Assembly: GCA_903862425.1 (NCBI GenBank)
Contig: CAIOYC010000009.1
Location: 1 to 64,000, forward strand
Length of the DNA: 64,000 nucleotides
From: an uncultured Caulobacterales bacterium
Lineage (GTDB): Bacteria; Pseudomonadota; Alphaproteobacteria; Caulobacterales; Caulobacteraceae
Reading direction: 5' to 3'
Shown here: positions 34,239-48,234 of the stretch, one piece after another
Position numbering within the stretch: position 1 is the first letter of the stretch
Layout of the letters: every line of letters starts with the position of its first letter
Program-made: the position numbers and the translations under genes
Notes under the pieces: model-generated
Told to the model about the DNA's origin: nothing
Seen by the model: only the letters and a program-made list of their open reading frames with translations
Databases searched by the model: none

Positions 34239-35948
34239 ATGCCGACCGCCCTGGATATCTCGATTGTGGAAACCCTCGCGCTCCTTGACGGCGCATTCAG
34301 CGAGCTTGCGGACGGAGTTGCGGAAGACGCCTATGCCGTGTGGCTGGGCGCTGGCATTTCTTTTGGCAAACTCGCGGCCCTGGCCGATCTTGCGGAAGAG
34401 GTGGTGGATCACCTGCGGGTGCGAATTGACCCTGGCGACCCGACTTGCCGGTGGAAGAACAGCCTGGACCGGATTCTCGGTCTCATGGGGCTAACACCCG
34501 ATGACTGGGCGAAGATCGACTACGGTAGCCCGATGGCCGCCTGGCCGGATCGCCAATCCATTCGAGCTCGGCTCGTCGTGCAATACGCGCGGATGCTGGA
34601 CCAGAATCCGGCGGGCGAGCGCGAGGACTACCTAGTGTGGAACGGCTTCGATGTGGTCGCGAAGTACGCCGACCCCACGACAGATCCAGGGCCGGAGCAC
34701 CTGGGGCTCGCGGCCCTGATTCTTGAGGGTGTGGCCTCCGATACGGCCAGCGCGAACTGGGACGGCCTTGTGGAGAAGGCCGTTGGGATTCTGGCAGGGG
34801 CAACAGCGAACGTCTTACAGGCGCGGGTCGTGCCGGCGGACGTGCAGAATAACCTTGCCCGCGCTCGGCTCTACAAGTTCCACGGCTGCGCGATCCTGGC
34901 TGGCGCAGACGCTGCTGTCTATCGCGAGCGGCTGGTGGGCCGCGCTTCGCAAATCCATGGTTGGCCGGACAAGAACCCGGTGATGGCCGGCAAACTGCTG
35001 GACCTGGCCATCTCCAAGCCCACTTTGATGCTCGGGCTTTCGGCCCAAGATACCAATATCCAGGGAATCTTCGTCGCGGCCGCCAAGCAGCTGCCTGCGA
35101 CATTCCCCACTCATCCGCCCGCAGTGGTGCTGTCTGAGGACAAGGTCGGTGTGGACCAGCGTAGCCTTCTCCAAAACTTCTACGCCAATGACTACAACGC
35201 AAGGTCCGGCGAGATCGAGGCCTCAGCCCTATTGCGGGCTTACGCCCGGGCGCTGTTGCCGGCGCTCTGGCTGCATGTCGTCTGCACCAAGCTGTCTGCG
35301 TTCATGGCGCAGGCTGCGCCAGGGCTCCCCGCGGGTGAGTTAGCTGATCTGCGCATCGCCTTGCGGCGGCTGCGGGATACGGGTGCGGCCGCGGCGGCGC
35401 CCGAAGAACACGAGGCCTTCATCCTTCAGGCGCTGGCCGTGGCCGGCCGCGCGATGAGCCTTTTCAGGGATGGTCGCACGCCGTCGGCCGGTGCGGGTCT
35501 CTACAGCCCTCTCACGATCCTCTCGGTCACCAAGTCGCTCGGCGACCCTACTCTGCCGAGTTCTGGCCTGCCGCAGCTGGGTTTGGGCATCGCCTTGCTA
35601 GGCCGCGGCGGCGCAGAAGGTCTGTGGACCTGCGCCATTGCCGATCCGGCCGAACCCAAATCAGGAGCTGTGACTGTCACTGGCGCAGGCCGAACGGCGG
35701 AAGTGTTCTTCGCGGCCAGCGCCCAGGCGGCGGCGCGCCTGACGATGGCAGGCCACGCGAGCCAGGATGACGATGCGGTCATCGTACACAGTCATGAGGT
35801 GCCGCCGGCCGCAGCGCGCACCCCGTCGGTGGCCCCCGGCCGCACGGGAAGGATCGGACTTCGCGAATTTAGCTTATCCTCACTGGCGGACCCAGCGACG
35901 AGTCTCGATGAGCTCCTGCTGAGGTTCAAAGCGGAGATGGCCCTGTGA
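34239..35948 (+). CDS. lmuA: SIR2-domain effector of a Lamassu-type system (LmuA-like)
   Basis: A 569-residue protein with an N-terminal SIR2-like NAD-binding fold: GAGIS at 37-41, the catalytic-loop Asn at Asn173 (ANWDG) and KFHG at 213-216. SIR2 domains in phage defence deplete NAD to stop infected cells. The second half has no motif that I recognise; it probably senses the partner or a phage signal. It overlaps the next gene by 4 bases (GTGA), and that gene overlaps an SMC-like ATPase in the same way. Effector, small protein and SMC ATPase in this order is the Lamassu arrangement, and a Sir2 effector subtype is known. Confidence 0.82.
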   Translation: MPTALDISIVETLALLDGAFSELADGVAEDAYAVWLGAGISFGKLAALADLAEEVVDHLRVRIDPGDPTCRWKNSLDRILGLMGLTPDDWAKIDYGSPMAAWPDRQSIRARLVVQYARMLDQNPAGEREDYLVWNGFDVVAKYADPTTDPGPEHLGLAALILEGVASDTASANWDGLVEKAVGILAGATANVLQARVVPADVQNNLARARLYKFHGCAILAGADAAVYRERLVGRASQIHGWPDKNPVMAGKLLDLAISKPTLMLGLSAQDTNIQGIFVAAAKQLPATFPTHPPAVVLSEDKVGVDQRSLLQNFYANDYNARSGEIEASALLRAYARALLPALWLHVVCTKLSAFMAQAAPGLPAGELADLRIALRRLRDTGAAAAAPEEHEAFILQALAVAGRAMSLFRDGRTPSAGAGLYSPLTILSVTKSLGDPTLPSSGLPQLGLGIALLGRGGAEGLWTCAIADPAEPKSGAVTVTGAGRTAEVFFAASAQAAARLTMAGHASQDDDAVIVHSHEVPPAAARTPSVAPGRTGRIGLREFSLSSLADPATSLDELLLRFKAEMAL

Positions 35949-36520
35949 CGGCGACGACCCCAGTCGAGCGGGTAGCTGAAACCCTGGAGGCCGCAGGATT
36001 CCGCCGCATGCCCGTCCCGTTCGTGATCGGCGGGCTTCAGGTCGAGGCGTCAGGCGCCTTCGTCGGCGCGGAGCCTTCGCCGGATCTCGTGGTGATCGGC
36101 GACACCGTGGCGCAAAGCCCTCCGCGGTTGCAGCAGATCATCGAGGGCGTCGGCCGGGCACTCGACATGATGTCGTCCCGCCGTCCGCTCACGCTGGTAC
36201 TTGTTGGTCCAAGACCGGGTTCGGCCGCACTCAGCGCAATGTCTCGCTACGCCCGGGTTCTTCCGGTTGGTGAGGTGGCGGACGAGGCGAGCCTGCGAAA
36301 TTGGCTGGCGGTGCTTCTTCCCTTGCAACTGCCAGAACCCCATGAAGCTGGCGGCGATACGGCGACCCTTGAACTCCTGGCGCGCGTGGAGAGTCCACTG
36401 GCCCGCGACCTCGTATCCTTTGCGGCTACCGGCGAAGAAGCCGTGGCAGAGCGTTTCCATGCGCTTGTCGACGAGCCTTTCGAAGACGAAGATCTTGTCG
36501 ATGGGGAGGACGCCCTGTGA
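35945..36520 (+). CDS. lmuC: Small middle subunit of the Lamassu-type operon (LmuC-like)
   Basis: A 191-residue, acidic protein starting with GTG inside the stop of the SIR2 gene and ending in a 4-base overlap with the ATPase gene. No catalytic motif is visible. The first 115 residues look like a mixed alpha/beta fold (ADPDLVVIGDTVAQSPP-like strands, LTLVLVGPRPG); the C-terminus is very acidic (PFEDEDLVDGEDAL). The assignment rests on position and size, since Lamassu operons have a protein of this size between effector and SMC ATPase. Confidence 0.72.
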   Translation: MTATTPVERVAETLEAAGFRRMPVPFVIGGLQVEASGAFVGAEPSPDLVVIGDTVAQSPPRLQQIIEGVGRALDMMSSRRPLTLVLVGPRPGSAALSAMSRYARVLPVGEVADEASLRNWLAVLLPLQLPEPHEAGGDTATLELLARVESPLARDLVSFAATGEEAVAERFHALVDEPFEDEDLVDGEDAL

Positions 36521-38958
36521 CCCCGTGGCTCAAGACGCTCGCCGTCGAGGACTTCCGAAGCATCCGCGGATCGGTTTCCGTCTCCCTAGATGCGCCCGTG
36601 GTGCTTGTTCACGGCCCGAACGGCACCGGGAAGACCACCCTGCTGTCCGCGATCGAACTCGGGCTGACGGGCGCCGTCGGCGCGCTCGAACGGTTCGACC
36701 CGGCCTATGTCGAGCATCTGCCGCACAAGGACGCGGAGAACGGCGAAGGTCGGGTGATGCTGACGGCGGCTTATGCCGACGCCACGCCCGAGGCCAAGTT
36801 CATGGTCAACGGGACGCTTGTTGAAGGGGAGGGGCTGCTCACGTCGGAAGACACCCGGTTTTTCGTGGAGCGCTGCTACCTCGCCCAGGCCACCCTCGGC
36901 CGCCTGCTGGAAATCTACGAACACCAGGATACGCGGAAGACTGACTCGCCGCTGACCCGATTTGTAAAGGAACTCCTGGGTCTGGCGCCGCTCGATGCTT
37001 TGGTCGAAGGGCTTCGTGCGACGGGCAATGTGCAGCGATTCCGCGAGGTGGCGCCGCTGTTCTGGGCGGCGCGCAAAGATCTGCCAACCCTCGAGCAGGA
37101 CGTAGTCAGCGCCCGCGAGCAGGAGGTGCAAACGCGGGCAGTGGTTGTCGCCAACGAAGGGGCCTTCCGCGAGCTTGCCGGTGATCTCGTGCAAGGCGAC
37201 GCCGCGATCGACCCTGAGGCGTTGGACCCACGGCTGCTCGCGTTGGCGGATGAACACAGGTTACGCCTCGAGAAACTCGTGCTGCTGCGTCGGAATCTGG
37301 CAGGGGCGGCCGAGCAAGTCCGTCTGGCGGAAGCGACAGATGCGTCGGGTGAGCGTCGGGCGGCGGAGGGCGCCGCAGCAACGGCGCGCGTTGCGCTCGA
37401 CGCCTGGATCAACGAGGCCGGCACAAAGCTCGAAACGCTGATCTCGGCGATCCAGGCCTCATTCCCTGACGTTCCCCCAAGTGCGACGGACATTGCAACC
37501 GCACACAAGGCGGCGATGGCCGCCGTCAAGGACGAGCGAGAGCGTCTGCAACGGCTGGTGACGGCCGATGAGTCGGACGGCCGGGTCCTTGCCGAAGTTC
37601 AAACCTCGGTGACGCAGGGGCTCGCCCGCATTGCGGCGATTGACACCGAGCTGACGGACTCGAAGGAGGCGGACGAAGAACTCGCCGCCGCGTTGACCGC
37701 GATCACCGCCCATATCGCCGGCGAGGATTGTCCCGTCTGCGGCCGGGACTTCTCGGAAGTCTCTGACAAACCACTCGCGGTTCACATCTCCGCGGAGATC
37801 GCGAGACTGGTCGGCGCGGTGGGCCGCCTTCGCACTTTGGTCGGTGATCGCAGCACCACCTCAGCGGCGGTCACACGCGCGCAACGGCAGGAGAGTGAAA
37901 TCACTGCACGCCGGCTGAGCCAAGTTCGGCGCGATGAGCTCAAGGTGATCCTTGCGCGCCTCGCCGAGTGGTCAAACGACTTGGAAGCTCTGGCCCTCGC
38001 CGCGGAGGCTGGTGGTGCCCTGCACAGGGCCGCTGCCGCGGCGCAACAACGCTTGGCGGAACTCAACAGCCAGGACTCCGCCGTTGGCGGTTTGCGGGCT
38101 CAACTCGCCCAATACGCCGATGATCTGGATCGCCCTCCACCGGGCTCCGACACATCACTCAGCACTGTCGTCGCGGATCTGCTGAAGGATGTCGGGGAGC
38201 AGGAGGTTCGGGAGGCCGACCGGGTGGCGGCCCGGACCCGGGCACGGGAAATTCTGGAAACGATCGCCGCGACACGACGTCAGCTAACGGTCGCTGAGGG
38301 AACGCACGCCGCAGCAGTAGCGCTGAGGGACCGCACAGCGGCTCGCAAAACTGAAGCGGACGCCCGCATCGAGATCGGTAAGGACTTGGCTGCGAAGGCA
38401 CGTGCCCTTCGCACGGAGAAAGTCCGGCAGGTGTTCAACGACGAACTCAACGCGATATGGCGCGAACTCTTCATCCGGCTTGCGCCTGACGAGGCCTTTG
38501 TCCCGGCGTTCGCCCTGCCGCAGGCGGCCGGCGGGGCAGTCGAGGCGATTCTTGAGACCCATTACCGTTCGGGTGGCAAGGGCGGGAACCCACGATCCAT
38601 GCTGAGCGCTGGGAACCTGAACACGGCGGCTTTGACGCTGTTTCTTGCGCTCAACCTGTCTGTGAAACCGGTGCTGCCTTGGCTGATCATCGACGATCCG
38701 GTCCAGAGCATGGACGACGTCCACATTGCCCAGTTCGCGGCGTTGCTGCGCACACTCAAACAGACGAAGCGGCAATTGATCATTGCCGTCCACGATCGTC
38801 AGCTGTTCGAATATCTGGCGCTTGAACTAAGCCCAGCGTTCAACGGCGACAGGCTGATCACGATCGAGCTCGGCCGTGGCGCCGACGGGATGACAACCGC
38901 GCCGTGGGATCTCAAGACCTACGAACCAGACCGAGCCATTGAGGCGAAGGCGGCGTGA
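36517..38958 (+). CDS. lmuB: SMC/Rad50-like ATPase of the Lamassu-type system (LmuB-like)
   Basis: An 813-residue ABC-type ATPase. Walker A GPNGTGKTT spans residues 33-41. Two long coiled-coil arms flank a zinc-hook-type CPVC at Cys405 and Cys408, as in Rad50. The C-terminal lobe has the signature-like SAGNLNTAALTLFLAL and Walker B WLIIDDPVQSMDD near residue 727, followed by the switch His in IIAVHDRQLFEYL. It probably senses foreign DNA ends or structures and releases or activates the SIR2 effector. All ATPase residues look intact, so the operon should be functional. Confidence 0.85.
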   Translation: MTPWLKTLAVEDFRSIRGSVSVSLDAPVVLVHGPNGTGKTTLLSAIELGLTGAVGALERFDPAYVEHLPHKDAENGEGRVMLTAAYADATPEAKFMVNGTLVEGEGLLTSEDTRFFVERCYLAQATLGRLLEIYEHQDTRKTDSPLTRFVKELLGLAPLDALVEGLRATGNVQRFREVAPLFWAARKDLPTLEQDVVSAREQEVQTRAVVVANEGAFRELAGDLVQGDAAIDPEALDPRLLALADEHRLRLEKLVLLRRNLAGAAEQVRLAEATDASGERRAAEGAAATARVALDAWINEAGTKLETLISAIQASFPDVPPSATDIATAHKAAMAAVKDERERLQRLVTADESDGRVLAEVQTSVTQGLARIAAIDTELTDSKEADEELAAALTAITAHIAGEDCPVCGRDFSEVSDKPLAVHISAEIARLVGAVGRLRTLVGDRSTTSAAVTRAQRQESEITARRLSQVRRDELKVILARLAEWSNDLEALALAAEAGGALHRAAAAAQQRLAELNSQDSAVGGLRAQLAQYADDLDRPPPGSDTSLSTVVADLLKDVGEQEVREADRVAARTRAREILETIAATRRQLTVAEGTHAAAVALRDRTAARKTEADARIEIGKDLAAKARALRTEKVRQVFNDELNAIWRELFIRLAPDEAFVPAFALPQAAGGAVEAILETHYRSGGKGGNPRSMLSAGNLNTAALTLFLALNLSVKPVLPWLIIDDPVQSMDDVHIAQFAALLRTLKQTKRQLIIAVHDRQLFEYLALELSPAFNGDRLITIELGRGADGMTTAPWDLKTYEPDRAIEAKAA

Positions 38959-39027: not shown

Positions 39028-41046
39028 TCAATCGGCGCTAAAGAAACTCCTTCCCGAGATGCCGGCTCGATCAAAGAACGCCTGGTTGCGATCGCGGGCG
39101 TCCTTAAGCAGATCGTCCCAGCCGATAAGTTCAATAGACCCTGAGAAGCCGCTTTCCGGGCGATAAATGCGACCGCGGCCATCTGCGGTGCGCCGCCACG
39201 TGTATGTCCAATCGTCGAGCTTCCCCACGATGTCGGCGACAACGAAGCAGTAGAAGATCGTATTTTGATCCAGCTTTATGGGCCGACCTTGTACATCGCG
39301 CAGCGCGCCCGACTGCAATTGCCGCACGTATCGTTCGACCTGGGACTGCGGGTGTTCGTCGTCCCCGTAGGAGGTGCGGCCAGGCTTCTTGAATTCGACG
39401 AGGAGCACCTTTGACGGTTGGTCGGTTTGGCGCAGCCCGTGGACATAGTCAAAGATCAGGACATCTGGCCGATCTCCGCTCGTGGTGGCGTCTGACAGCG
39501 TGGCAAAATCGACGTCCGAGCTGAAATATTGCGCGAATGCCAGACGCTCATCAATGATCCAGAGATCGTGCGAGCTCGCCGCCTCAACCTTGCGGCCCTG
39601 ACCTTGGACGGTGTTCACCCGCAGCGGACAGATGAAGGAGTGAAGCACGTCCTCGCGCTGGTAGGCGCCGTCACGCGCATCGTCGCGAACCTTCTGGAGC
39701 AGGATCTCGATAAAATCGAGGACCACCTTGCGCCGAACGATGTACTCCGTGAGGCTCCGCTGCTCGGCCTCCTCAATCGCCTTGCCGGCCTCGCTGACGG
39801 TCGCGGCGAATGTGTCGGCGCCCACCTGGTCCTCTTTCAGGCGCGTCAATACAGATCGGATTTTCTCCGCCTGGCGCTCGTCGCGACGGAACCGCTCGCG
39901 GGCTAGGTGCCCATAGATGGCGTCGCCCTTCAATTCGCCGGATGGAACGCGCTTTTGGAGTTCTTCGGTGTCGCCGAAGGCCACCGAAGGATAGGTCGCG
40001 GTGATCGCCTCGATCGTTTTCTTCTGCTCACCCTTCAGCTTGGCCAAAGGTTCCTCAAGGAACAGCTCGATGTGCGATGAGCAAACGTCGTTGATAATCC
40101 GGTCGAGAATCACGTCCTCAAACAGAAACTTCGTTCGTTCTTGATTGACGTTAGTGTCGAGAAACTCGCCCCTGACGATGCCATGGAACACGCTGTCGTC
40201 GTTCGCGCCGAAGTATTTGAGGCCAAGCTTCGCGTCGATGCTTTGCGAATGGACCGTCCGGTCGTGGGCGATGAAGTGGATGAAGTGCGAGCCCTTGAGG
40301 TCGGCGCTCGCTACCTTGTCACACTCCATCATCGTCAGCTTGAGCGTCCCGTATTCTTCGGTTTCCATTTGGATCTCAGGGGCGCGCCGTCGGACAATCT
40401 CGTTGATGGCCTCGGGGTAGGTCCGCGATTCATCGCCCACGTGGACCGAGATCGTCGGGCAGCGCCCCCCGATGAAGGTCGGCAAGAAGTGGGAGGTGAG
40501 ATGCTGGAAAACGAAGTTTCCCCGGCCGGGAAACTTTTCCAGGTAGCCGTTCGATCTCAGGCCATCGAACCTCACGTGAAACGACGGTTCCGTTGCGTCG
40601 ATCACCTCGGCGACGGTCACGTCCTTGATCTGGTCGTCGAGCTCAAGAACGAATTTGAAGCTACGCCGCTTCAGGCCGCCGCCGTCGTCGAAGACGCTGA
40701 TCACCGAGATCCGTTCGAAGCAGTCCAACCACAGCAGGCGGCCGACGCCTTTGCCGCCGATTGCGATCTTGTGGTCGGTGTCCGTGGTGATGAACGCCTC
40801 CCAGTTCTCTTCATCAAGGCCGCGCCCGTTGTCCTCGACACTCGCCCAGACACCTTCCTTCTTTCGGTCCGTCGACACCGTGACGACGACTCGGCCCTTG
40901 GTGGCCACATCGGTCGGAAAGCGGGCCTGTGTGGCGTGGATCGCGTTGCTGACCGCTTCGAACAACGGCTGCAGGGCGTCCGCGACGTTGGCGGGCTTGG
41001 GAAGCCTCGCGATCCGCTTCACGAGATTTGGTCGGAGGGAGGGCAA
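39028..41046 (-). CDS. GHKL-ATPase fused to a PDDEXK-like C-terminal domain
   Basis: A 672-residue protein with an Hsp90/MORC/MutL-like ATPase at the N-terminus: Glu30 and Asn34 in EAVSNAIHA, the Asp loop EDNGRG at 71-76 and GGKGVGRLLWL as lid. A helical middle part (about 330-470) precedes a C-terminal domain with DVLIFDYVHG...VLLVEFKKPGR near residue 550, a D-ExK pattern of restriction-type nucleases, and Tyr/Trp-rich strands after it. A TTG start is used because no ATG precedes the conserved N-terminus. It lies 122 bases downstream of the QueC-like gene and may belong to that operon or stand alone. A nucleotide-gated nuclease role in defence is inference. Confidence 0.78.
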   Translation of the reverse strand: MPSLRPNLVKRIARLPKPANVADALQPLFEAVSNAIHATQARFPTDVATKGRVVVTVSTDRKKEGVWASVEDNGRGLDEENWEAFITTDTDHKIAIGGKGVGRLLWLDCFERISVISVFDDGGGLKRRSFKFVLELDDQIKDVTVAEVIDATEPSFHVRFDGLRSNGYLEKFPGRGNFVFQHLTSHFLPTFIGGRCPTISVHVGDESRTYPEAINEIVRRRAPEIQMETEEYGTLKLTMMECDKVASADLKGSHFIHFIAHDRTVHSQSIDAKLGLKYFGANDDSVFHGIVRGEFLDTNVNQERTKFLFEDVILDRIINDVCSSHIELFLEEPLAKLKGEQKKTIEAITATYPSVAFGDTEELQKRVPSGELKGDAIYGHLARERFRRDERQAEKIRSVLTRLKEDQVGADTFAATVSEAGKAIEEAEQRSLTEYIVRRKVVLDFIEILLQKVRDDARDGAYQREDVLHSFICPLRVNTVQGQGRKVEAASSHDLWIIDERLAFAQYFSSDVDFATLSDATTSGDRPDVLIFDYVHGLRQTDQPSKVLLVEFKKPGRTSYGDDEHPQSQVERYVRQLQSGALRDVQGRPIKLDQNTIFYCFVVADIVGKLDDWTYTWRRTADGRGRIYRPESGFSGSIELIGWDDLLKDARDRNQAFFDRAGISGRSFFSAD

Positions 41047-41168: not shown

Positions 41169-41768
41169 TCAAGGCGCGGCCTGTAGACCGCCCACGGCGC
41201 CAAGCACCAAGGCATGCTTCACGCAGCCCCGACATTGGCCGCAGGGGTATTCGCTGACATGACAGGAGAAGGTCCAGGGCAACCACGCTTCGATATCTGG
41301 CGCGCGCTGTACCAGTTGCTCTGAGGTCATGCGATGCGCTGGGGCCTGAACGCGCACGCCACCTTCCTGCAACGCTAACAAACGGCTTAGGGCGGTCACA
41401 AATGCTTGCCGTCCATCGGCATGGACGTCATCGCCTTTCACGGACCCGATCAGGATCTCGGACAGCCCCTCGTCAAGCAACCGCATCGCAGCAACGGTGA
41501 CCAGCAGCTGGTTGCGATAGGGCCACCATTCCGGCGCCCCGGCGAGACTCGAGGGCTTGCGGCCCGCCAAATGGCCAGAGCCGAGTTCGGCAGTCGATAG
41601 GCGAATGACCTCGTGACGCAACTGAAGCCGTCGCGCGATCTCCGCAGCCGCCCTGACCTCCGCAACCGCCACACGCTGCCCATAGTCGACCGTCACCAGT
41701 ACGTCAGGCCGCAACCACGCCGCCAACGCCGCCGAATCGATACCGCCGGAAAACAGGAGCGCCTTCAT
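41169..41768 (-). CDS. QueC-like ATP-dependent synthetase/ligase
   Basis: A 199-residue PP-loop enzyme related to 7-cyano-7-deazaguanine synthase. SGGIDS at 7-12 is the pyrophosphatase loop, VDYGQR at 27-32 is the QueC-specific segment, and PYRNQLLV then IGSVKGDD line the active site. Zinc ligands are Cys169, Cys176, Cys179 and Cys182. It is shorter than housekeeping QueC (about 220-230 residues), and no queD, queE or folE lies nearby. QueC relatives occur in the Qat system and in type IV CBASS, where they act in defence rather than queuosine synthesis. It overlaps the PfkB-fusion gene by 4 bases and is the fourth gene of the operon. Confidence 0.86.
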   Translation of the reverse strand: MKALLFSGGIDSAALAAWLRPDVLVTVDYGQRVAVAEVRAAAEIARRLQLRHEVIRLSTAELGSGHLAGRKPSSLAGAPEWWPYRNQLLVTVAAMRLLDEGLSEILIGSVKGDDVHADGRQAFVTALSRLLALQEGGVRVQAPAHRMTSEQLVQRAPDIEAWLPWTFSCHVSEYPCGQCRGCVKHALVLGAVGGLQAAP

Positions 41769-42943
41769 CGCATCGCCGCCCAGGCCGCACGGTAGACCGC
41801 GGTTGCGAAGTCATCAACGATCTCGCATCCCGTTCCCAACGGCATTGTGACGTCATGCTGCCGCACGTTCTCGGCCAGCCCGACGACCGGAATGCCCCGA
41901 AGGCGGGCGTGGCCGACCTCGAACAGCGTGCCGGGATCTCCGCCGTCCAAGATCGCCAGCACCGCCGTACAGGCGTCGAGCGCCGCCAGATCGCGAGGCG
42001 CAACCACCTCGGGATCACCAAAGCCGACGTCATGAAGCGGCGAGAACACATCGCAACCGAGGCCTATAAGCGCTGATCGGGCCTCCTCGACGACCCAGCG
42101 TTCGCCGAGGGCGAAGAAGGGAGACGCCAGATAGACGCGCCCCGGTGTCGTGGCTGCCGGCAAAGGCGCGCCATGCTGAAGATCGGCAGGAGACGGCAAT
42201 GGCAGTGCGCGGGAGGCGACATAGTGGGCAACCGCGCGTGAGGCCAAATCCGCCGCCGCCACCGGATCACGGCCTTCGACTGCCCAATAGAGGGCGAACG
42301 CCGCCGAGAACACATCACCGCTGCCAATCTTGAAAATACGAGCACTGCGGTACGCAGGTGCACGGCCGAGCCAGCCGCTTGGCGCATAGACCTCCGCGCC
42401 GTAGGCGCCGCGTTTCACGACGAGGATGTCGTCCTTGGCGCCCGCGAGCAGCAGTTGCGCCGCTTCGGCCAAATCGGCTGCCGGCGATATGGCGCGGAGT
42501 TCCTGTTCATTCAGGATCGTTGCCAGGCGGCCCGCCGTCGAACCGTTGGCGCGGTAACCCACGCCAGAAGACTGCGGATCGAAGATCGCGGTGCTGGCGT
42601 TCACCTGAGCATCACCCTCAAGAAGGCCGAAGCGCAGGATGGTCTCACCTTCGACCTCAAGGGGCGTTTCACGCTCGCCGCTCCAGTACATGTCCGGTCG
42701 GCTCAACGGATGGAAGTAGTGGAAGCTGGGAGTCTGGCGGCTTGAAGTCGTACGCAATCGGACGCCGCTGAGCCCCATGAGCTGTTCCGCCTGGCCACTA
42801 AAGCCTGGCTCGCAGTAGGTGACGAGTTCGACGTCCGGAATCTGGCGCGCCAGCGCCGCGGCCGCTCGGCCGCCCGAGCCATAGAGATGGTTCCACGCCG
42901 GAACGAGACAGCGTTCCTGATACAGACCGCCGGTGATAATCAT
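41765..42943 (-). CDS. PfkB-type sugar kinase fused to nucleoside 2-deoxyribosyltransferase
   Basis: A 392-residue two-domain protein. Residues 1 to about 260 resemble a ribokinase/PfkB fold with the signature IFKIGSGDVFSAAF (catalytic Asp after GSG), though the N-terminal Gly-rich motif is short. Residues from about 268 on are a nucleoside 2-deoxyribosyltransferase domain: VYLASPFFALGERWVVEEA, the Asp-rich DLAALDACTAVLAILDGGDPGTLFEVGHA (nucleophilic Glu in LFEVG). Such a fusion could move or phosphorylate a (deoxy)ribosyl group on a base. It overlaps its neighbours by 1 base (upstream) and 4 bases (downstream), so the products are made together. Confidence 0.85.
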   Translation of the reverse strand: MIITGGLYQERCLVPAWNHLYGSGGRAAAALARQIPDVELVTYCEPGFSGQAEQLMGLSGVRLRTTSSRQTPSFHYFHPLSRPDMYWSGERETPLEVEGETILRFGLLEGDAQVNASTAIFDPQSSGVGYRANGSTAGRLATILNEQELRAISPAADLAEAAQLLLAGAKDDILVVKRGAYGAEVYAPSGWLGRAPAYRSARIFKIGSGDVFSAAFALYWAVEGRDPVAAADLASRAVAHYVASRALPLPSPADLQHGAPLPAATTPGRVYLASPFFALGERWVVEEARSALIGLGCDVFSPLHDVGFGDPEVVAPRDLAALDACTAVLAILDGGDPGTLFEVGHARLRGIPVVGLAENVRQHDVTMPLGTGCEIVDDFATAVYRAAWAAMR

Positions 42944-43335
42944 CAGTGAGGTCGCTGGCTCCGGTAGACCCGGATCATCGGCGGTGTCTGAGTACCGACG
43001 ACCTCGCCCCTGTATCGGTGGCCTTCGGACCAGCAGGCGATAAGGTCGATGAGTTCGTTTGCAGCAGCGAGGGAGCCAGCGATCTGCCCTGTGCCAGGCA
43101 CCCGACAGACGACCCGGCTGAATGGGGTTCCCGGCTGAACCTCCACATCGAGCTGGGCGCCGGGCGTAAGGATCGCAACAACTGCAGGGTCGGGCCCCTG
43201 CAAAGGGGTGATGAAGTTGAGGTTGCAGTGATCCGTGTCCGGTCGACCGGGATCGCCCTCACCACCGCCGCCGCCCCCGCCGGAGCCGCCGCCATTTCCG
43301 CCGCCCGTGGGGCCTGTCCGGGTTCTGCCAGCCAT
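42943..43335 (-). CDS. Gly-rich small protein of the QueC/OGG operon
   Basis: A 130-residue protein of unknown function. The first 27 residues are low-complexity, mostly Gly with Thr/Arg (MAGRTRTGPTGGGNGG...), so a flexible tail. From residue 36 there is a compact beta-rich domain (CNLNFITPLQGPDPAVVAILTPGAQLDV, SRVVCRVPGTGQIAGSL, LIDLIACWSEGHRYRGEVVG). That pattern of strands resembles a small HIRAN-like barrel, but this is weak. GGGAG precedes the start. Its stop overlaps the kinase-fusion start by one base. A flexible N-terminal tail next to a QueC-like enzyme makes it a candidate target for base conjugation (inference). Confidence 0.72.
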   Translation of the reverse strand: MAGRTRTGPTGGGNGGGSGGGGGGGEGDPGRPDTDHCNLNFITPLQGPDPAVVAILTPGAQLDVEVQPGTPFSRVVCRVPGTGQIAGSLAAANELIDLIACWSEGHRYRGEVVGTQTPPMIRVYRSQRPH

Positions 43336-43382
43336 GATTCGCTCCCAGCCTTCAACTAGAGGCTACTGGAAGCGGGGCCGTC

Positions 43383-44129
43383 TCAACAGGGACGTGCGAT
43401 CGCCAGCGGCAGTCGGCGCATCTGCGACCACATAACCGCGTCGAGCACGGCGGCGTCGACCCCGATCCGACGCGCAAAGGTCAGGAACAGTTCCTCCAAT
43501 CGTGCGTAGTCCCGCGGTAGGCGGATATCGCGCCCGAACACCTGCATCAGCTGGCAGGCCCGCACGATGTGGATGTCGAGGATGGCGACGGCGTCGCTGC
43601 CGGTGTGGTTGCGAACGATCCAGGACGCGGTTTTGGGCCCAATGCCGGAAATCCTCATCAGATCATCTCGAAAGAGGTGCGGGTCGCTCGTTCGCACAGG
43701 GCGGTCGCAGAGCAGGGTCAGGGCCCGCACTATTCGAGCCGAACGCTGACGCGGGAATCGATAGCGGATTTGGCGCCGCTCCACCGTTAGCGGCCTGCGA
43801 AGCATCTCAAAAATCTGCTCTTCGCCGGGCGGCGGAGCGCCATCGAAGACGCCCTCGTCCGCCAGGCGTTCGTAGGCGGCGAGCGCTACCTCCGCTGAAA
43901 TGCCATGGCCGCCCAGCAGGCAGAAGCCGACCTCGGCCGCTAGATTCCCATCAAGGCAGACAAAGCCGTGAGCGGCCTCCGGAGCGGTGCGGGCGACGGC
44001 TGCCCAGTAGGCTGGGCTGAGCACGTCTGAGACCGAGCCCCAAGCAACCCCCGGCATCACCTCTTCCTCCGGCGCCGGCAGCGTCCAGCTGGCCATCCGC
44101 CCATCAACCATCGCGAACGCCGTTTGCAT
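43383..44129 (-). CDS. OGG-like HhH-GPD DNA glycosylase/lyase
   Basis: A 248-residue base-excision-type enzyme. The helix-hairpin-helix reads RISGIGPKTASWIV, with Lys166 at the place of the Schiff-base Lys of 8-oxoguanine glycosylase (hOGG1 K249 in GVGTKVADC). Asp185 in AILDIHI matches hOGG1 D268; the spacing between them is 19 in both. So the protein keeps the residues for a bifunctional glycosylase/lyase. The N-terminal half is not recognisable. It is first in the four-gene operon and 26 bases from an operator palindrome. OGG-like proteins accompany QueC-like ones in type IV CBASS. Confidence 0.84.
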   Translation of the reverse strand: MQTAFAMVDGRMASWTLPAPEEEVMPGVAWGSVSDVLSPAYWAAVARTAPEAAHGFVCLDGNLAAEVGFCLLGGHGISAEVALAAYERLADEGVFDGAPPPGEEQIFEMLRRPLTVERRQIRYRFPRQRSARIVRALTLLCDRPVRTSDPHLFRDDLMRISGIGPKTASWIVRNHTGSDAVAILDIHIVRACQLMQVFGRDIRLPRDYARLEELFLTFARRIGVDAAVLDAVMWSQMRRLPLAIARPC

Positions 44130-44154
44130 TGAGACTCCTTGACGAAAGCGTTTG

Positions 44155-44176
44155 ATGCATTTTTATGTAAATGCAT
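44155..44176. promoter_or_regulatory. Perfect operator palindrome ATGCATTT-N6-AAATGCAT
   Basis: Left arm 44155-44162, right arm 44169-44176, spacer TTATGT. It lies between the divergent glycosylase operon (start 44129) and the HTH gene (ATG 44175, inside the right arm). Placement over both promoters is what a self-regulating repressor would need. The HTH protein encoded next door is the obvious binder (inference). Confidence 0.75.
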
Positions 44177-44492
44177 GACGGATGGCAAGCCGAACCGCAC
44201 GGCCTTGGCGGATGATCTAGAGCAGGCTCGGCGTGTTGCAGGGGTGAGCCAGCGCGCCTTGGCTGACGACTTGGGGATTTCGCAAGGGCACTACTCGAAG
44301 CTCGTGGACGGGCTCGTGAATGACAAAAAGCGCTATGTTGAAAGGGGTTTGCGCCTGCTCTCCGCTGAAGAGCAGGCAGGTGAAGACCTCGACGGGCTCG
44401 TGCGGGCTGTCGCGCGCGAAATCCGGATGTCGCCAGCCTTCCGACGCCTAGTCGGTGCGGCCCTCACATATTCTCGTCGCGATGCATCGTGA
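44175..44492 (+). CDS. HTH (XRE-like) regulator divergent from the OGG/QueC operon
   Basis: A 105-residue DNA-binding protein. The HTH is LEQARRVAGVSQRALADDLGISQGHYSKLVDG (about residues 13-45), a Cro/C1-type fold; the C-terminal half is acidic, then basic (AVAREIRMSPAFRRLVG). No good Shine-Dalgarno precedes ATG 44175, which overlaps the operator, so the mRNA may be leaderless; an in-frame TTG at 44139 is the alternative. It is likely the repressor of the divergent four-gene operon and of itself. Confidence 0.78.
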   Translation: MTDGKPNRTALADDLEQARRVAGVSQRALADDLGISQGHYSKLVDGLVNDKKRYVERGLRLLSAEEQAGEDLDGLVRAVAREIRMSPAFRRLVGAALTYSRRDAS

Positions 44493-44520: not shown

Positions 44521-45576
44521 TCAGTCGCGGTGTGTTACGTCGCGCTCAGCCGCAAGCGCTTCGCGTAGGTCTTGTGCGCTCTGACGGGCCGTCTCAGCAT
44601 GTGTGCGCCAGATTGCTAGATCGGTTTGGGGTGTGGCCAGGGCCAGGTAGGCGCCGTCGATCAGGCGTTCTCGGAGGTCCCGCACGCGGGCGAACAGGCG
44701 GCCCCGCAGATAGGGGCGAAGGCTTTCCGTCAGCGCCCCGATCCTGCGCATGGACTCGACGCACCGAACCAACCGCGGCTCGCGACGCGGGTCATCGTCT
44801 GAAACCGCAAAGGCGTCGCCACCCAGGCTTACGAGCGTGTCAATTTCACCGGTGAGTTGGTCCGCCTGCTCCAGAAGCTCGGTCCGCCGCACCTTTGCTA
44901 AGGCGTCCAGTCGCTCGGCGCGGTCCCTGATCTCTGCGGCGTCACGTTGTAGCGCCATCGCGAGATCGCGGGGCCGAATAAACAACTCGTCGCGGTCATG
45001 GAGCAGCCCAGATAGGCGTATGGGATAGCTGTCGATCAAGGCGTGACTGATCGCCAGGCCCATCTCCAAGCAAGCGCCGAGCAGAGTCGCGACATCATCG
45101 ATATCGGCCGCCATGACATTGGGCGGGTCGCCAGAGTCGTCATAGAGGTGTCCGCGGATCTGTCGTTCGAGCCGATCCTTTTCCACCAGCGTTTGATTGA
45201 AGACGTGACGGCAGATGTCATCCGCCGCGACCTCAGCCAGCTCCTCGAGATTCGTCAGGGTCACATTGGTGCTGCGCACGGCCATGAGCGCGCCAGCCTG
45301 AAAGCCGCTCTCTGAGAGAAGAATGGCTCGGTCGGCCCCGACGTCTTGCGCGATTTGCACAAGCGTCATGACCTGCTCCTTGCGAACCGAAGACTTCCAG
45401 AGCTTGCACTCGACGATCCACAGGACCGACACGCCGGCGATCGTCAGGCGTACGACCACATCCACGTCGTGTGAGGCGCGCGCACCGACCAAGGTCTCTT
45501 CAACGGTGGCGTCAAAGCCCATCTTTCGAAAAAGCGCCGCCGCGTCGTGTTGGTACTGCCTCCATTCAGTGGACAT
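44521..45576 (-). CDS. Mrr-type restriction-endonuclease-domain protein
   Basis: A 351-residue protein. The N-terminal 120 residues are a PDDEXK (Mrr-cat) domain: YQHDAAALFRKMGFDATVEET, then DVDVVVRL...LWIVECKLW (Asp, Glu-Cys-Lys), then QDVGADRAILLSESGFQAGA. The middle and C-terminal parts are helical with a coiled-coil around DRAERLDALAKVRRTELLEQADQLTGEIDTL. Start 45576 is the first Met of the conserved domain and is 22 bases after the stop of the upstream nuclease gene. Probably a DNA-cleaving defence factor; no specificity domain is recognised. Confidence 0.82.
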   Translation of the reverse strand: MSTEWRQYQHDAAALFRKMGFDATVEETLVGARASHDVDVVVRLTIAGVSVLWIVECKLWKSSVRKEQVMTLVQIAQDVGADRAILLSESGFQAGALMAVRSTNVTLTNLEELAEVAADDICRHVFNQTLVEKDRLERQIRGHLYDDSGDPPNVMAADIDDVATLLGACLEMGLAISHALIDSYPIRLSGLLHDRDELFIRPRDLAMALQRDAAEIRDRAERLDALAKVRRTELLEQADQLTGEIDTLVSLGGDAFAVSDDDPRREPRLVRCVESMRRIGALTESLRPYLRGRLFARVRDLRERLIDGAYLALATPQTDLAIWRTHAETARQSAQDLREALAAERDVTHRD

Positions 45577-45598: not shown

Positions 45599-46570
45599 CT
45601 AGAGGATTTTCTTGAGAGGCAACCGGTTGACGCGCGCGGCGGTGATCTTCTTGCGGATGAAGTCCTCCAGGTCGCCTTCTCGCTCAAGCAGCGCCACGAT
45701 CTCCTGGAGCGTGCAGAGCACCAGGGTGCGCTGATTGAGGAAATCCTCGGCCACCTTGATCGCGCTGGGCGTGAAGTCGGAGTTGGAGATAAAGAGACCG
45801 CTCACGCCGGCCCTGAGCATCAGCCGGCTGATGTGGGGCGAGATTTCAGCGTAGCCGATGCTCTCGGACCACCACTTGATCTCCACGAGCAGAAGTTCGT
45901 TGTCGATCTTGATGACGCCATCAATCTGCTCGACGACCCCGACGCCATCACCACCCTTCCGCCGGACATCTTCCTCGACAAGGATGCCGCAGGCGGCGAA
46001 CAGGGCGTTGAGCGCGACTTCGAGCTGCTTGCCGCGGCGCTGGGCGTCAGCCTCGGCGAATACGCCGAAAAGCTTCGTCTTGGCCTCCACGATAGCGGTC
46101 TTTCGTTTCTGGCGTTCCGCGCGCTGTGCCGTCTGCTCGCGCTCACGTTCGGCGCGAGCCGCGTCGGTCTGCTGCTTGTGGGCCAGATTGATGCGGGTGA
46201 TGGTGTCCTTCGCGTTGACCGTCTTCTGGATTTGCGCGACGCGGCCGACAGCTTCATTCTGCTTTTCGGGCCAGCAGACAGAGAAGTCGTCGAACTCCAC
46301 GACACGGCGTAGCAACTCCCGTCGCATCGACAGGGTCCGATCGCCTCCTTCGTTGAGCGCTGTGAGGAAGGTTCGCGCAATGTCGTACTTGTTGATCGCG
46401 CTCCTATCTGTCGCCAGCTGCTCGTCGGTGTCGACGGTCATGCTCGCCGGCATGCCTGCTCCGCGAAAGAACAGGACGACGTCCCGCTTTGAGCGACACA
46501 AGAGGGGGATGGTGTCGACAAGCTGGCCGAAGAGTTCGGGCGGAAAGTGGAAGGCTTCGCTCTCATTCAT
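45599..46570 (-). CDS. Restriction-endonuclease-like protein with coiled coil
   Basis: A 323-residue protein in three parts. The N-terminal 130 residues (FHFPPELFGQLVDTIPLLCRSKRDVVLFFRGAGM, YDIARTFLTALNEGG) resemble effector-associated alpha-helical domains. A charged helix of about 60 residues follows (AAREREREQTAQRAERQKRK type). The C-terminal nuclease domain has GKQLEVALNALF, the Asp in VEQIDGVIKID and ELLLVEIKWWSE (Glu-Ile-Lys), a PDDEXK core. It is upstream of the Mrr-type gene, with 22 bases between them, suggesting a two-nuclease operon. Confidence 0.8.
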   Translation of the reverse strand: MNESEAFHFPPELFGQLVDTIPLLCRSKRDVVLFFRGAGMPASMTVDTDEQLATDRSAINKYDIARTFLTALNEGGDRTLSMRRELLRRVVEFDDFSVCWPEKQNEAVGRVAQIQKTVNAKDTITRINLAHKQQTDAARAEREREQTAQRAERQKRKTAIVEAKTKLFGVFAEADAQRRGKQLEVALNALFAACGILVEEDVRRKGGDGVGVVEQIDGVIKIDNELLLVEIKWWSESIGYAEISPHISRLMLRAGVSGLFISNSDFTPSAIKVAEDFLNQRTLVLCTLQEIVALLEREGDLEDFIRKKITAARVNRLPLKKIL

Positions 46571-46706: not shown

Positions 46707-47591
46707 TCACGAGGTGACCGGGCCGGCGTTTAGACCGCCGGCCCGCGCGGCGTGCGGCATCAGGAACGCTCGCAGGTCGGCGAGCACTTCTTCGAGCGCG
46801 GCCGGCGCAAGTTCCAGGTCCTCGATGAACGCACGCCATTGCGCCTGCTTGGCGCCGTCCGCTGCAAAGGCCGGGGTGAGGCCGTCAGGCGGCACGGCCG
46901 GAATCGCCGTCTCGCGCCGTGCGAAGGTGGCGGCGATGGCGCGGGCCAGCCGTTCGGGGTCGAAGTCGTACGTTCGGGCCAGTACCCAGACGTCATAGAA
47001 GTCTTTCATTCGGCTGTTGGCGCGGCCGAGCGCCACCATCGCCTGGAACTTCTCGGCCACGACGGTCTCGCGGGCGTAGGCGCGCAGCCGCGGCGGCGGC
47101 AAGTCGAGCAACACCGGATAGTCGATCAGCTCCGCGCCGGGCTCCAGCGCGTCGCCGAAGCCGATATCGATATTGATGGCGATCCGGGCGCCGTCGAGCG
47201 TGGCGCGCGTCCGCAGCCGGACGCCGCCGTACTCTACCTCTTCACGGATCGGCTCGGCGCGCAGCCCGTCCGTGTCGAAGATCAGGCCGTCGTCCGCGTC
47301 GGCCGCCATGATCTCCCGGAACACCTGGACCAGGGCCTCGGGATCAGGATCGCCGAAGCCTAGGAGGTCAAGATCGCGGGTCCCCCGGTGCGGCGCCTCG
47401 AACCAGGTCATCACCAGCATGGCGCCCTTGAGCACGAAACGGTGCGCGACCGGCGAACGGCTGAGCCGATAGAGCAGGCGTTCCAGGGCGTAGCGGGTCA
47501 GCACGAGGTCAAACGCTTGGCCCTGCGCCCGTGCGTGGTTGAGCAGCCGCGCGCGCACCGAGGCGGCAATGTTAAGCGGCGCCTTAGGCAT
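46707..47591 (-). CDS. abiEii: AbiEii-type nucleotidyltransferase toxin
   Basis: A 294-residue nucleotidyltransferase of the type IV AbiE toxin-antitoxin family. FVLKGAMLVMTWFEAPHRGTRDLDLLGFGD carries the GS/GxM and DxD-type active-site Asp pair; YARETVVAEKFQAMVALGRANSRMKDFYDVWVLA is the second conserved block with the invariant Lys and Asp. Such toxins block tRNA use by adding nucleotides to the 3' end. The start at 47591 overlaps the antitoxin stop by 8 bases. Length is typical. Confidence 0.92.
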   Translation of the reverse strand: MPKAPLNIAASVRARLLNHARAQGQAFDLVLTRYALERLLYRLSRSPVAHRFVLKGAMLVMTWFEAPHRGTRDLDLLGFGDPDPEALVQVFREIMAADADDGLIFDTDGLRAEPIREEVEYGGVRLRTRATLDGARIAINIDIGFGDALEPGAELIDYPVLLDLPPPRLRAYARETVVAEKFQAMVALGRANSRMKDFYDVWVLARTYDFDPERLARAIAATFARRETAIPAVPPDGLTPAFAADGAKQAQWRAFIEDLELAPAALEEVLADLRAFLMPHAARAGGLNAGPVTS

Positions 47592-48234
47592 CGGCGGTGA
47601 AGGCCTCAAGATAGGGGCGGACCTTGGCCCAGGCGCCCAGGCGCTGGGCAAGGTCGGCGAGCGCGGCAGGCGACGCCTTCCGCTGGCGCAGGATCTCGCG
47701 CAGCGCTTCGATGGCGAGGTTACGCCCGGCCGTACGCTCCTGGCGGAAGGCGTCGATCACGGAACGCGCGGCGCCGAACACCTTCACATCCACGCCGTCG
47801 ATGACGTGGTGTTCCACGTCCTGCTCCAGCAGGTTCCGTGAGAGCCTGACAATCCGCAGCGGCGGGCGATCGGCCGTGGGGCGCCAGTCCTTCAGGCCGA
47901 TGGCCATCCAAACGCGCCGTGGCAGCTGGTCGGTGAGTCCGTGGAAGGCAAGCGCCGAGGCCAGGCAGATGACCCCTTTGGGCACGCGCTTGGCCGCCTG
48001 CGCGAGATCATGCTGGCTATCGACGGCAACGTCGGCGAGCTGGTAGAGCCCGCGGCCGAGCCGCACCACCTCGCCGGCGGCGACCAGGCGGCTCAGGGTC
48101 GCCGGGGTCACGCCCTCGGCGCGAAGCTCGGACGCCCGCATGAGACCGCGGTTGTGGAGTAGCGTCGCGGCCCAGACGGCGAGCGTCTGGTCCGATGTGG
48201 ATGGTTCATTTCCTCGGCGTTCCGGGGTTTTCAT
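47584..48234 (-). CDS. abiEi: AbiEi-type antitoxin
   Basis: A 216-residue antitoxin and autorepressor with an N-terminal winged helix (LLHNRGLMRASELRAEGVTPATLSRLVAAGEVVRLGRGLYQLAD) and a C-terminal domain (CLASALAFHGLTDQLPRRVWMAI) that is conserved in AbiEi. It precedes and overlaps the toxin gene by 8 bases, the usual order. AbiEi proteins bind inverted repeats upstream of their operon; one such repeat lies about 100 bases upstream (48334-48363). Confidence 0.92.
   Translation of the reverse strand: MKTPERRGNEPSTSDQTLAVWAATLLHNRGLMRASELRAEGVTPATLSRLVAAGEVVRLGRGLYQLADVAVDSQHDLAQAAKRVPKGVICLASALAFHGLTDQLPRRVWMAIGLKDWRPTADRPPLRIVRLSRNLLEQDVEHHVIDGVDVKVFGAARSVIDAFRQERTAGRNLAIEALREILRQRKASPAALADLAQRLGAWAKVRPYLEAFTADA

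Follow-up and report, generated by a model that had tools for sequence, protein, structure and literature searches.

A conserved, mobile four-gene set built around a QueC-like ligase is a candidate for a third QueC-based nucleobase–protein conjugation defence system

Immunity based on the QueC family is only now emerging, with Cap9 of type IV CBASS described in 2025 and QatC in 2026. Cap9 attaches 7-carboxy-7-deazaguanine (CDG) to the CD-NTase at its N-terminal Gly; QatB carries a tail of this kind too, in which Gly2 is needed for defence (PMC11996544, PMC13279940). How conjugation of a nucleobase to an N-terminus brings about defence is described as an open question (PMC13279940). A further group of QueC proteins, Cluster 4, has a PF00294–PF05014 neighbour in about 89% of its genomic neighbourhoods, and the main text of the July 2026 paper reads the pair as purine salvage and notes helix–turn–helix (HTH) genes (PMC13329287). 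Here, we analyse a stretch of 64,000 nucleotides (the window; contig CAIOYC010000009.1, positions 1 to 64,000) from an uncultured Caulobacterales bacterium, and within it an operon of four ORFs (open reading frames) at 41169-44129 on the minus strand. In order, these encode an OGG-like DNA glycosylase, a small Gly-rich protein, a fusion of a PfkB-family kinase to a nucleoside 2-deoxyribosyltransferase (NDT), and a QueC-like ligase. The four-gene set is spread over at least five bacterial phyla, conserved and mobile, and we consider it fairly probable that it is a third QueC-based nucleobase–protein conjugation defence system, horizontally mobile and separate from both type IV CBASS and Qat. 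The genes of the operon and their parts are as follows, all on the minus strand; pLDDT is the confidence of the structural model.

43383..44129 (-): OGG-family DNA glycosylase (helix–hairpin–helix, HhH), 248 aa; Ogg-HhH PF22175, E=1.7e-15; Lys166/Asp185 pair intact
42943-43335 (-): small Gly-rich protein gene, 130 aa; no Pfam family
43228..43335 (-): start of the small protein and its disordered Gly-rich tail, residues 1-36 (MAGR...), the proposed acceptor end for QueC; pLDDT about 54 for residues 1-30
42958..43227 (-): folded, predicted HIRAN-like domain of the small protein, about residues 37-126; conserved Cys residues C37 and C101; AlphaFold2 pLDDT 81-95
41765-42943 (-): PfkB-NDT fusion gene, 392 aa
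42158..42943 (-): PfkB-family kinase domain, about residues 1-262 of the fusion; PF00294, E=5e-6; catalytic GSGD (Asp210) intact
41765..42157 (-): NDT domain, about residues 263-392 of the fusion; PF05014, E=9.5e-13; nucleophile Glu342 intact
41169..41768 (-): QueC-family ATP-dependent ligase, Cluster 4 type, 199 aa; PF06508, E=3e-24; PADLOC QueC PDLC00911, 2e-18

The genes are as tightly coupled as the initial annotation had described, with a 47-base gap after the OGG-like gene followed by overlaps of 1 and 4 bases. That annotation had also made its proposal depend on the four families recurring together elsewhere, which they do. Loci were picked by the PfkB-NDT fusion alone, through a profile scan of one genome per species and of viral contigs, and plasmids were searched with the window's own PfkB-NDT protein rather than a profile. 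A QueC-like gene accompanies the fusion at 98 of the 102 loci (window included), the small protein at 98 and an OGG-like gene at 92, counts that are not independent events because the set is redundant (several copies from Methylobacteriaceae, for example). Several of the absences are contig ends, the real exception being a clade with a TGT gene, described below. The order small protein, PfkB-NDT, QueC is fixed, and the OGG gene lies in front of these or behind them on the opposite strand. Conservation over 102 loci excludes a chance cluster, which we therefore rejected.

Carriers belong to the alpha-, beta- and gammaproteobacteria (Pseudomonadota), Myxococcota, Acidobacteriota, Verrucomicrobiota and Balneolota. 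In the tree, Archangium and one acidobacterium are placed inside proteobacterial branches, indicating that the genes have moved horizontally. Presence is sporadic: the full-length fusion was found in one of 60 relatives, the window's own genome, and in four of 385 genomes of the class. A reverse search of the same 385 genomes with a profile of the small protein matched two, both of them carriers, namely the window's genome and another in which the small protein lies 12 bases upstream of the NDT gene. Plasmids often carry the system (37 records, of which 19 are conjugative), and the profile scan of viral contigs gave eight convincing loci; a viral scan with a single sequence produced no matches, and none of the isolated phage genomes carries the system.

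The enzymes keep their catalytic residues. Lys166 and Asp185 of the OGG-like protein, which the initial annotation had singled out for their spacing of 19 residues, are present and invariant in 91 sequences, and the PDB relatives of this protein are 3n0u and 9o00. The SGGxDS motif of QueC and Glu342 of NDT, also named there, are likewise in place. The kinase Asp210 is found in 102 of 102 primary copies of the fusion; Glu342 is found in 97 of the 102 and is invariant in alignment A6, the five copies that lack it being three of the four TGT loci and two truncated contigs on which a second, degenerate copy is all that can be seen. By fold, the PfkB domain is nearest to pseudouridine kinase (7vva, E=3.5e-11), followed in the ranking by adenosine kinases bound to the 7-deazapurine nucleosides sangivamycin and iodotubercidin.

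The QueC-like protein scores 82.6 bits against the model of canonical QueC, TIGR00364, far below the equivalog cut-off of 150.3, so it is a divergent paralogue. In 97 sequences the SGG-x-D-S motif, Arg85-Asn86, Asp118 and four Cys residues are 97-100% conserved (Asp118 100%). The protein also carries the Cluster 4 signature CH(x)5CxxCxGCxK, as CHVSEYPCGQCRGCVK in the window, and the signature residues C169, H170, C176, C179, G181, C182 and K184 are kept in 96-100% of the 97 relatives. Its best PDB match is Cap9 of type IV CBASS (9nto, E=0.019), with which it has a GSG-x-L-x-GR stretch in common; the PADLOC models of QatC do not match it. Cap9 reads guanine with Tyr115 and Asp117, the latter recognizing N1/N2 (PMC13279940). 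Matched by motif, from sequence only, the equivalent of Asp117 is the invariant Asp118, and that of Tyr115 is His116 in 95% of the relatives.

These similarities raise the question of whether the operon is simply type IV CBASS or Qat with its core gene located elsewhere. We rejected this for the window's genome, which is 99.89% complete and contains no match to a CD-NTase (SMODS PF18144) and none to a KAP ATPase (QatA, PF07693), so that the statement in the initial annotation that both are missing now holds genome-wide. Among 28 carrier genomes, six contain PF18144. The window operon encodes no Cap10 TGT-like protein, and only four of the 102 loci do so; the QatD TatD nuclease is not among the window neighbours scanned with Pfam, and no genome-wide search for QatD was made. 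The system is thus neither type IV CBASS, lacking CD-NTase and TGT, nor Qat, lacking the KAP ATPase and the QatC extensions.

Several features are shared with type IV CBASS. Cap9 is the closest solved relative of the QueC-like protein, an OGG-like partner occurs in both systems, the substrate or putative substrate has a disordered N-terminus of small residues and Gly (MGGS in the CD-NTase, M[SGAT]G in the small protein), and a base-exchange enzyme is present in each, TGT in CBASS and NDT here. The differences are the HIRAN-like small protein and the PfkB-NDT fusion in place of CD-NTase and TGT, and the change of Cap9 Tyr115 to His. In common with Qat, a small substrate-like protein with a long disordered tail and a conserved N-terminal motif (MGTS in QatB) adjoins a QueC-family enzyme. 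However, the QueC-like protein of 199 aa lacks the N- and C-terminal extensions of QatC (about 400 aa) and has Asp118 where QatC has Thr, and the folded domain is HIRAN-like rather than all-helical as in QatB. By its CH(x)5CxxCxGCxK signature and PfkB-NDT neighbour, the window's QueC belongs to Cluster 4 as the main text of PMC13329287 describes it. The pairing of QueC with PfkB-NDT is therefore prior art, and the combination that the initial annotation had taken to be new is not wholly so. That main text does not mention the OGG enzyme, the small protein or its N-terminal motif, nor the defence-island setting or the variant with TIR and TGT, and in the literature searched we came across no account of the OGG enzyme, of an M[SGAT]G protein with a HIRAN-like domain, of the island setting or of the TIR/TGT variant.

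We chose the starts of the small protein by ribosome-binding site and start codon alone, blind to the sequence. Among the 80 cases that were non-redundant and unambiguous, Ser occupies position 2 in 59, Gly in 13, Ala in 5 and Thr in 1, and 71 have Gly at position 3. The motif M[SGAT]G begins 71 of 80 small proteins, versus 0 of 80 OGG, 6 of 87 QueC, 3 of 102 NDT and 2 of 55 nitroreductase proteins when these partner genes were handled similarly. The initiator Met is normally removed before Ser, Gly, Ala or Thr as the second residue. After the motif comes a tail of 14-64 residues (median 27), 57% of them Gly, Ser or Pro. A D[WY]xP-like motif is often found at about residues 8-16 (L053, L061, L063, L067, L098 and similar loci), with W or Y near P in 29 of 77 tails, and recalls the conserved Pro16/Trp18 of QatB.

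Beyond the tail, the small protein is a folded domain with a HIRAN-like predicted fold. When the domain was compared with the PDB by Foldseek, the leading 16 matches were all HLTF HIRAN structures or lp_0118 (probability 0.99-1.0, E 0.01-0.09, TM-score 0.43-0.47 to HLTF HIRAN and 0.54-0.56 to lp_0118); later matches were unrelated, with probability <=0.5, except for Rad5, itself a HIRAN protein, and viral models named HIRAN also came up. Searches with the sequence of the small protein gave no match in the PDB and none in Pfam. The HIRAN domain of HLTF binds DNA ends. The flexible Gly-rich N-terminus that the initial annotation had proposed is thus borne out by the disordered tail (pLDDT about 54), and the idea of a merely flexible peptide gives way to a protein with a folded domain. 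Its role as the target of conjugation, also suggested there, fits the 71 of 80 M[SGAT]G starts and the disordered tail, and by analogy with the CD-NTase and QatB the small protein is likely to be the QueC substrate.

From these parts, whose presence and conservation are observed, and from the two published relatives, we infer a conjugation step and a possible series of reactions around it. Removal of Met would expose a Ser/Gly/Ala-Gly end of the small protein, to which the QueC-like enzyme, with ATP, would join an activated carboxylated guanine-like base, probably a 7-deazaguanine. NDT could then move 2-deoxyribose onto the conjugated base, as TGT would do in variants resembling type IV CBASS, and the kinase domain of the fusion would phosphorylate the sugar. 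As NDT and PfkB lie on one chain and would lead from base to nucleoside to nucleotide, the product could be a protein-linked deoxynucleotide; that the two enzymes act on the conjugate is a tentative proposal, to which we give rather less than even weight. More doubtful is the step in which the HIRAN-like domain would take the conjugate to DNA ends. The OGG-like glycosylase might release or proofread the base, either keeping the system silent or triggering it on phage DNA. We think it improbable, and somewhat more so than the HIRAN step, that the protein-linked deoxynucleotide acts on phage DNA synthesis or is joined to phage DNA in a covalent protein–nucleobase–DNA link, OGG then serving for release or as a safeguard. 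We know of no precedent for the chemistry of such a link, and conjugation to DNA is speculation.

A widespread third system of this kind would name a candidate QueC substrate. Since TGT is replaced by a nucleoside enzyme and a kinase, it would also predict the next fate of the conjugated base, and a family filed as purine salvage becomes a testable defence hypothesis. A further variant, with a TIR protein as the conjugation substrate, is predicted as well.

That prediction comes from four loci forming one clade (L011, L015, L107 and L108), in the order PfkB-NDT, a TIR-TGT fusion (PADLOC TGT, 1.8e-22), OGG, QueC and a ThsB-like TIR protein. A SLATT membrane effector candidate is encoded in L015, where the match was computed, and apparently in L107 and L108 too. 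The ThsB-like protein adjoining QueC starts MGGGSSGSW or MGGGGGG, comparable to the MGGS start of the type IV CBASS CD-NTase. QueC, OGG and the PfkB-NDT fusion are common to this variant and the window operon; the variant differs in having a ThsB-like TIR protein starting MGGG next to QueC, a TGT fused to another TIR, and a degenerate NDT, the nucleophile being lost in three loci and, in L011, the aligned Glu being kept with the surrounding motif lost. Most simply read, TGT and NDT would carry out one and the same step, an exchange of the base on a sugar, and the QueC-adjacent protein would be the conjugation substrate; as one evolutionary event, the exchange of TGT for NDT is suggestive only. 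The absence of a TGT-like gene, stated in the initial annotation, therefore applies to the window operon and not to this sister variant. As an arrangement, the operon of TIR-TGT, OGG, QueC and MGGG-TIR resembles a hybrid of Thoeris and type IV CBASS, with the TIR protein in the place of the conjugated CD-NTase.

In a second variant (L027, L029-L032, L035-L037, L044, L047, L048, L050, L054, L062 and L099), a duplicated pair of small protein and PfkB-NDT follows QueC; the second NDT is dead, having lost its nucleophile, and the kinase Asp is kept. A FRG-domain-like gene, identified by eye rather than by profile, follows the duplicated pair in 13 loci.

The surroundings of the system point to defence. 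Besides Mrr-like nucleases and an AAA ATPase, the island in the window holds the following:

34239-38958 (+): Lamassu-like system, comprising a SIR2-like protein, a 191-aa protein and an SMC ATPase matching LmuB
46707-48234 (-): AbiEi/AbiEii toxin–antitoxin pair; PADLOC 1e-78 and 4e-127

At 1e-10, the 88 proteins taken from the flanks of 30 loci match 211 PADLOC families (among them Gabija A and B, dGTPase, AriA, DRT and Old), against six families for 88 control proteins from arbitrary regions of carrier genomes, a comparison that is a contrast rather than a fold enrichment because PADLOC families are redundant. Known defence families in the window and in the flanks of its relatives thus support the defence-island setting that had been claimed for the operon. 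The island genes, the PADLOC flank contrast and the common plasmid carriage together strongly suggest defence, and from this context we predict that the system very probably serves against phages.

Purine (7-deazapurine) salvage, in which the QueC-like protein and PfkB-NDT would be metabolic enzymes that recover or convert nucleosides, is the reading given for Cluster 4 (PMC13329287). NDT and nucleoside kinases are indeed salvage enzymes, the QueC-like protein and PfkB-NDT nearly always occur together (in that paper and at our 102 loci), and Vut transporters lie near four loci. A salvage pathway, however, would not lead one to expect sporadic presence, plasmid carriage and defence-island flanks, nor constant partners with no use in salvage (the OGG glycosylase and the M[SGAT]G-tailed HIRAN-like protein), nor TIR/SLATT variants, and we regard this explanation as very unlikely.

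Several observations weigh against defence by conjugation, as a whole or in its single steps. Support for the defence role comes from gene content and context, and the role is accordingly a prediction. Residue 2 of the small protein is mostly Ser (59 of 80; Ala in the window), unlike the Gly of CBASS and Qat. The HIRAN likeness is structural and modest (E about 0.01, TM-score 0.43-0.56), and by sequence none of 49 members matches Pfam HIRAN. Ribokinase and inositol kinases score like the adenosine kinases, so that the kinase fold cannot separate nucleoside from sugar kinases, and the swap of TGT and NDT is confined to one clade. The base itself presents a further difficulty. Azospirillum oleiclasticum, Microvirga flocculans and Stenotrophomonas sp. 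ISL-67 have no detectable canonical QueC and no convincing QueE, with the limit that the QueE models score alphaproteobacterial QueE weakly. Because of these three carriers, host-made CDG would not be the sole substrate unless it is taken up; either the base is taken up there, or it is not CDG. All three encode Vut-type (queuosine-precursor) transporters, and the Microvirga genome, with two copies of the system, has such a gene immediately upstream of the copy at L064.

The need of such carriers for an outside source of the base is consistent with a sensor of phages with 7-deazaguanine DNA, in which OGG would excise the phage base, and NDT, PfkB and QueC would process it and attach it to the small protein as an alarm. 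All the enzymes would then fit one base. Against this, canonical QueC is present in 25 of the 28 carrier genomes, where the base would already be present, and OGG enzymes classically prefer 8-oxoguanine; we consider a sensor of this kind unlikely. The window's genome has two canonical QueC genes elsewhere, and two QueC/QueD/QueE-like clusters are found on its contigs C5 (about 24-25.6 kb) and C10 (about 38.8-40.5 kb), one of which may serve a DNA 7-deazaguanine pathway.

Around the conserved core, accessory genes vary among loci and include a nitroreductase, a Mrr nuclease, the FRG protein and a Dam-like methylase. Two neighbours of the window operon have counterparts elsewhere:

44139..44492 (+): divergent XRE-type HTH gene, putative regulator; PF13560, 7e-7
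44521..45576 (-): Mrr-like restriction endonuclease, accessory; PF04471, 8e-15; the start at 45576 (MSTEWRQYQ) is probable, judged from homology

An XRE-type HTH gene recurs near 31 loci. Homologues of the Mrr-like endonuclease, which lies upstream of the operon, overlap or adjoin the operon in L008, L012, L014, L058 and L067. Two different Mrr_cat nucleases are adjacent in the window, at 45599-46570 and 44521-45576 (-), and only that at 44521-45576 is of the family found beside QueC in relatives. As candidate parts of the operon we rejected the HATPase gene (39028-41046) and the Lamassu-like genes, none of which recurs in relatives. In about 15 loci (L010, L013 and L075-L097; Pseudomonas and relatives), the OGG gene is overlapped by one for a Dam-like D12 adenine methylase.

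These nucleases and methylases bring to mind DNA modification by base exchange, in which a modified (protein-borne) base would be put into DNA, OGG would read or erase it, and Mrr-like or other nucleases would cut wrongly marked DNA. The invariant OGG active site, the Mrr endonuclease in six loci, the Dam-like methylase in 15, the HIRAN-like domain and the TGT variant, which suggests base exchange into a polymer, could all be accommodated. Yet NDT enzymes as a family work on free nucleosides rather than polymers, the nucleases and the methylase are optional, and no DpdA-like enzyme was noted in the annotated loci, although no model search was aimed at DpdA. Marginally the strongest of the alternatives, DNA modification remains in our view an unlikely one beside conjugation to the small protein.

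A further accessory gene encodes a SagB/ThcOx-like nitroreductase (PF00881) with a PSAG motif; it overlaps the end of QueC in 59 of 102 loci (for example L010:9786-10475) and is absent from the window. Together with the Gly-rich tail, a nitroreductase with this motif in 59 loci might indicate peptide maturation, the small protein being a microcin-like product, or one resembling ribosomally synthesized and post-translationally modified peptides (RiPPs), on which the QueC-like ligase and the SagB-type nitroreductase would act. This is the least probable of the explanations, and a very unlikely one: no cyclodehydratase, protease or exporter recurs among the neighbours, the small protein has a conserved folded domain, and the nitroreductase is missing from about 40% of loci, the window included.

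Lastly, a dGTPase gene is found no more than 4 kb away from the system in 12 loci, including L012, L022, L038, L050, L058, L067, L074, L075, L080 and L085; dGTPases could supply deoxyguanosine as the sugar donor for NDT, and are also common by themselves.

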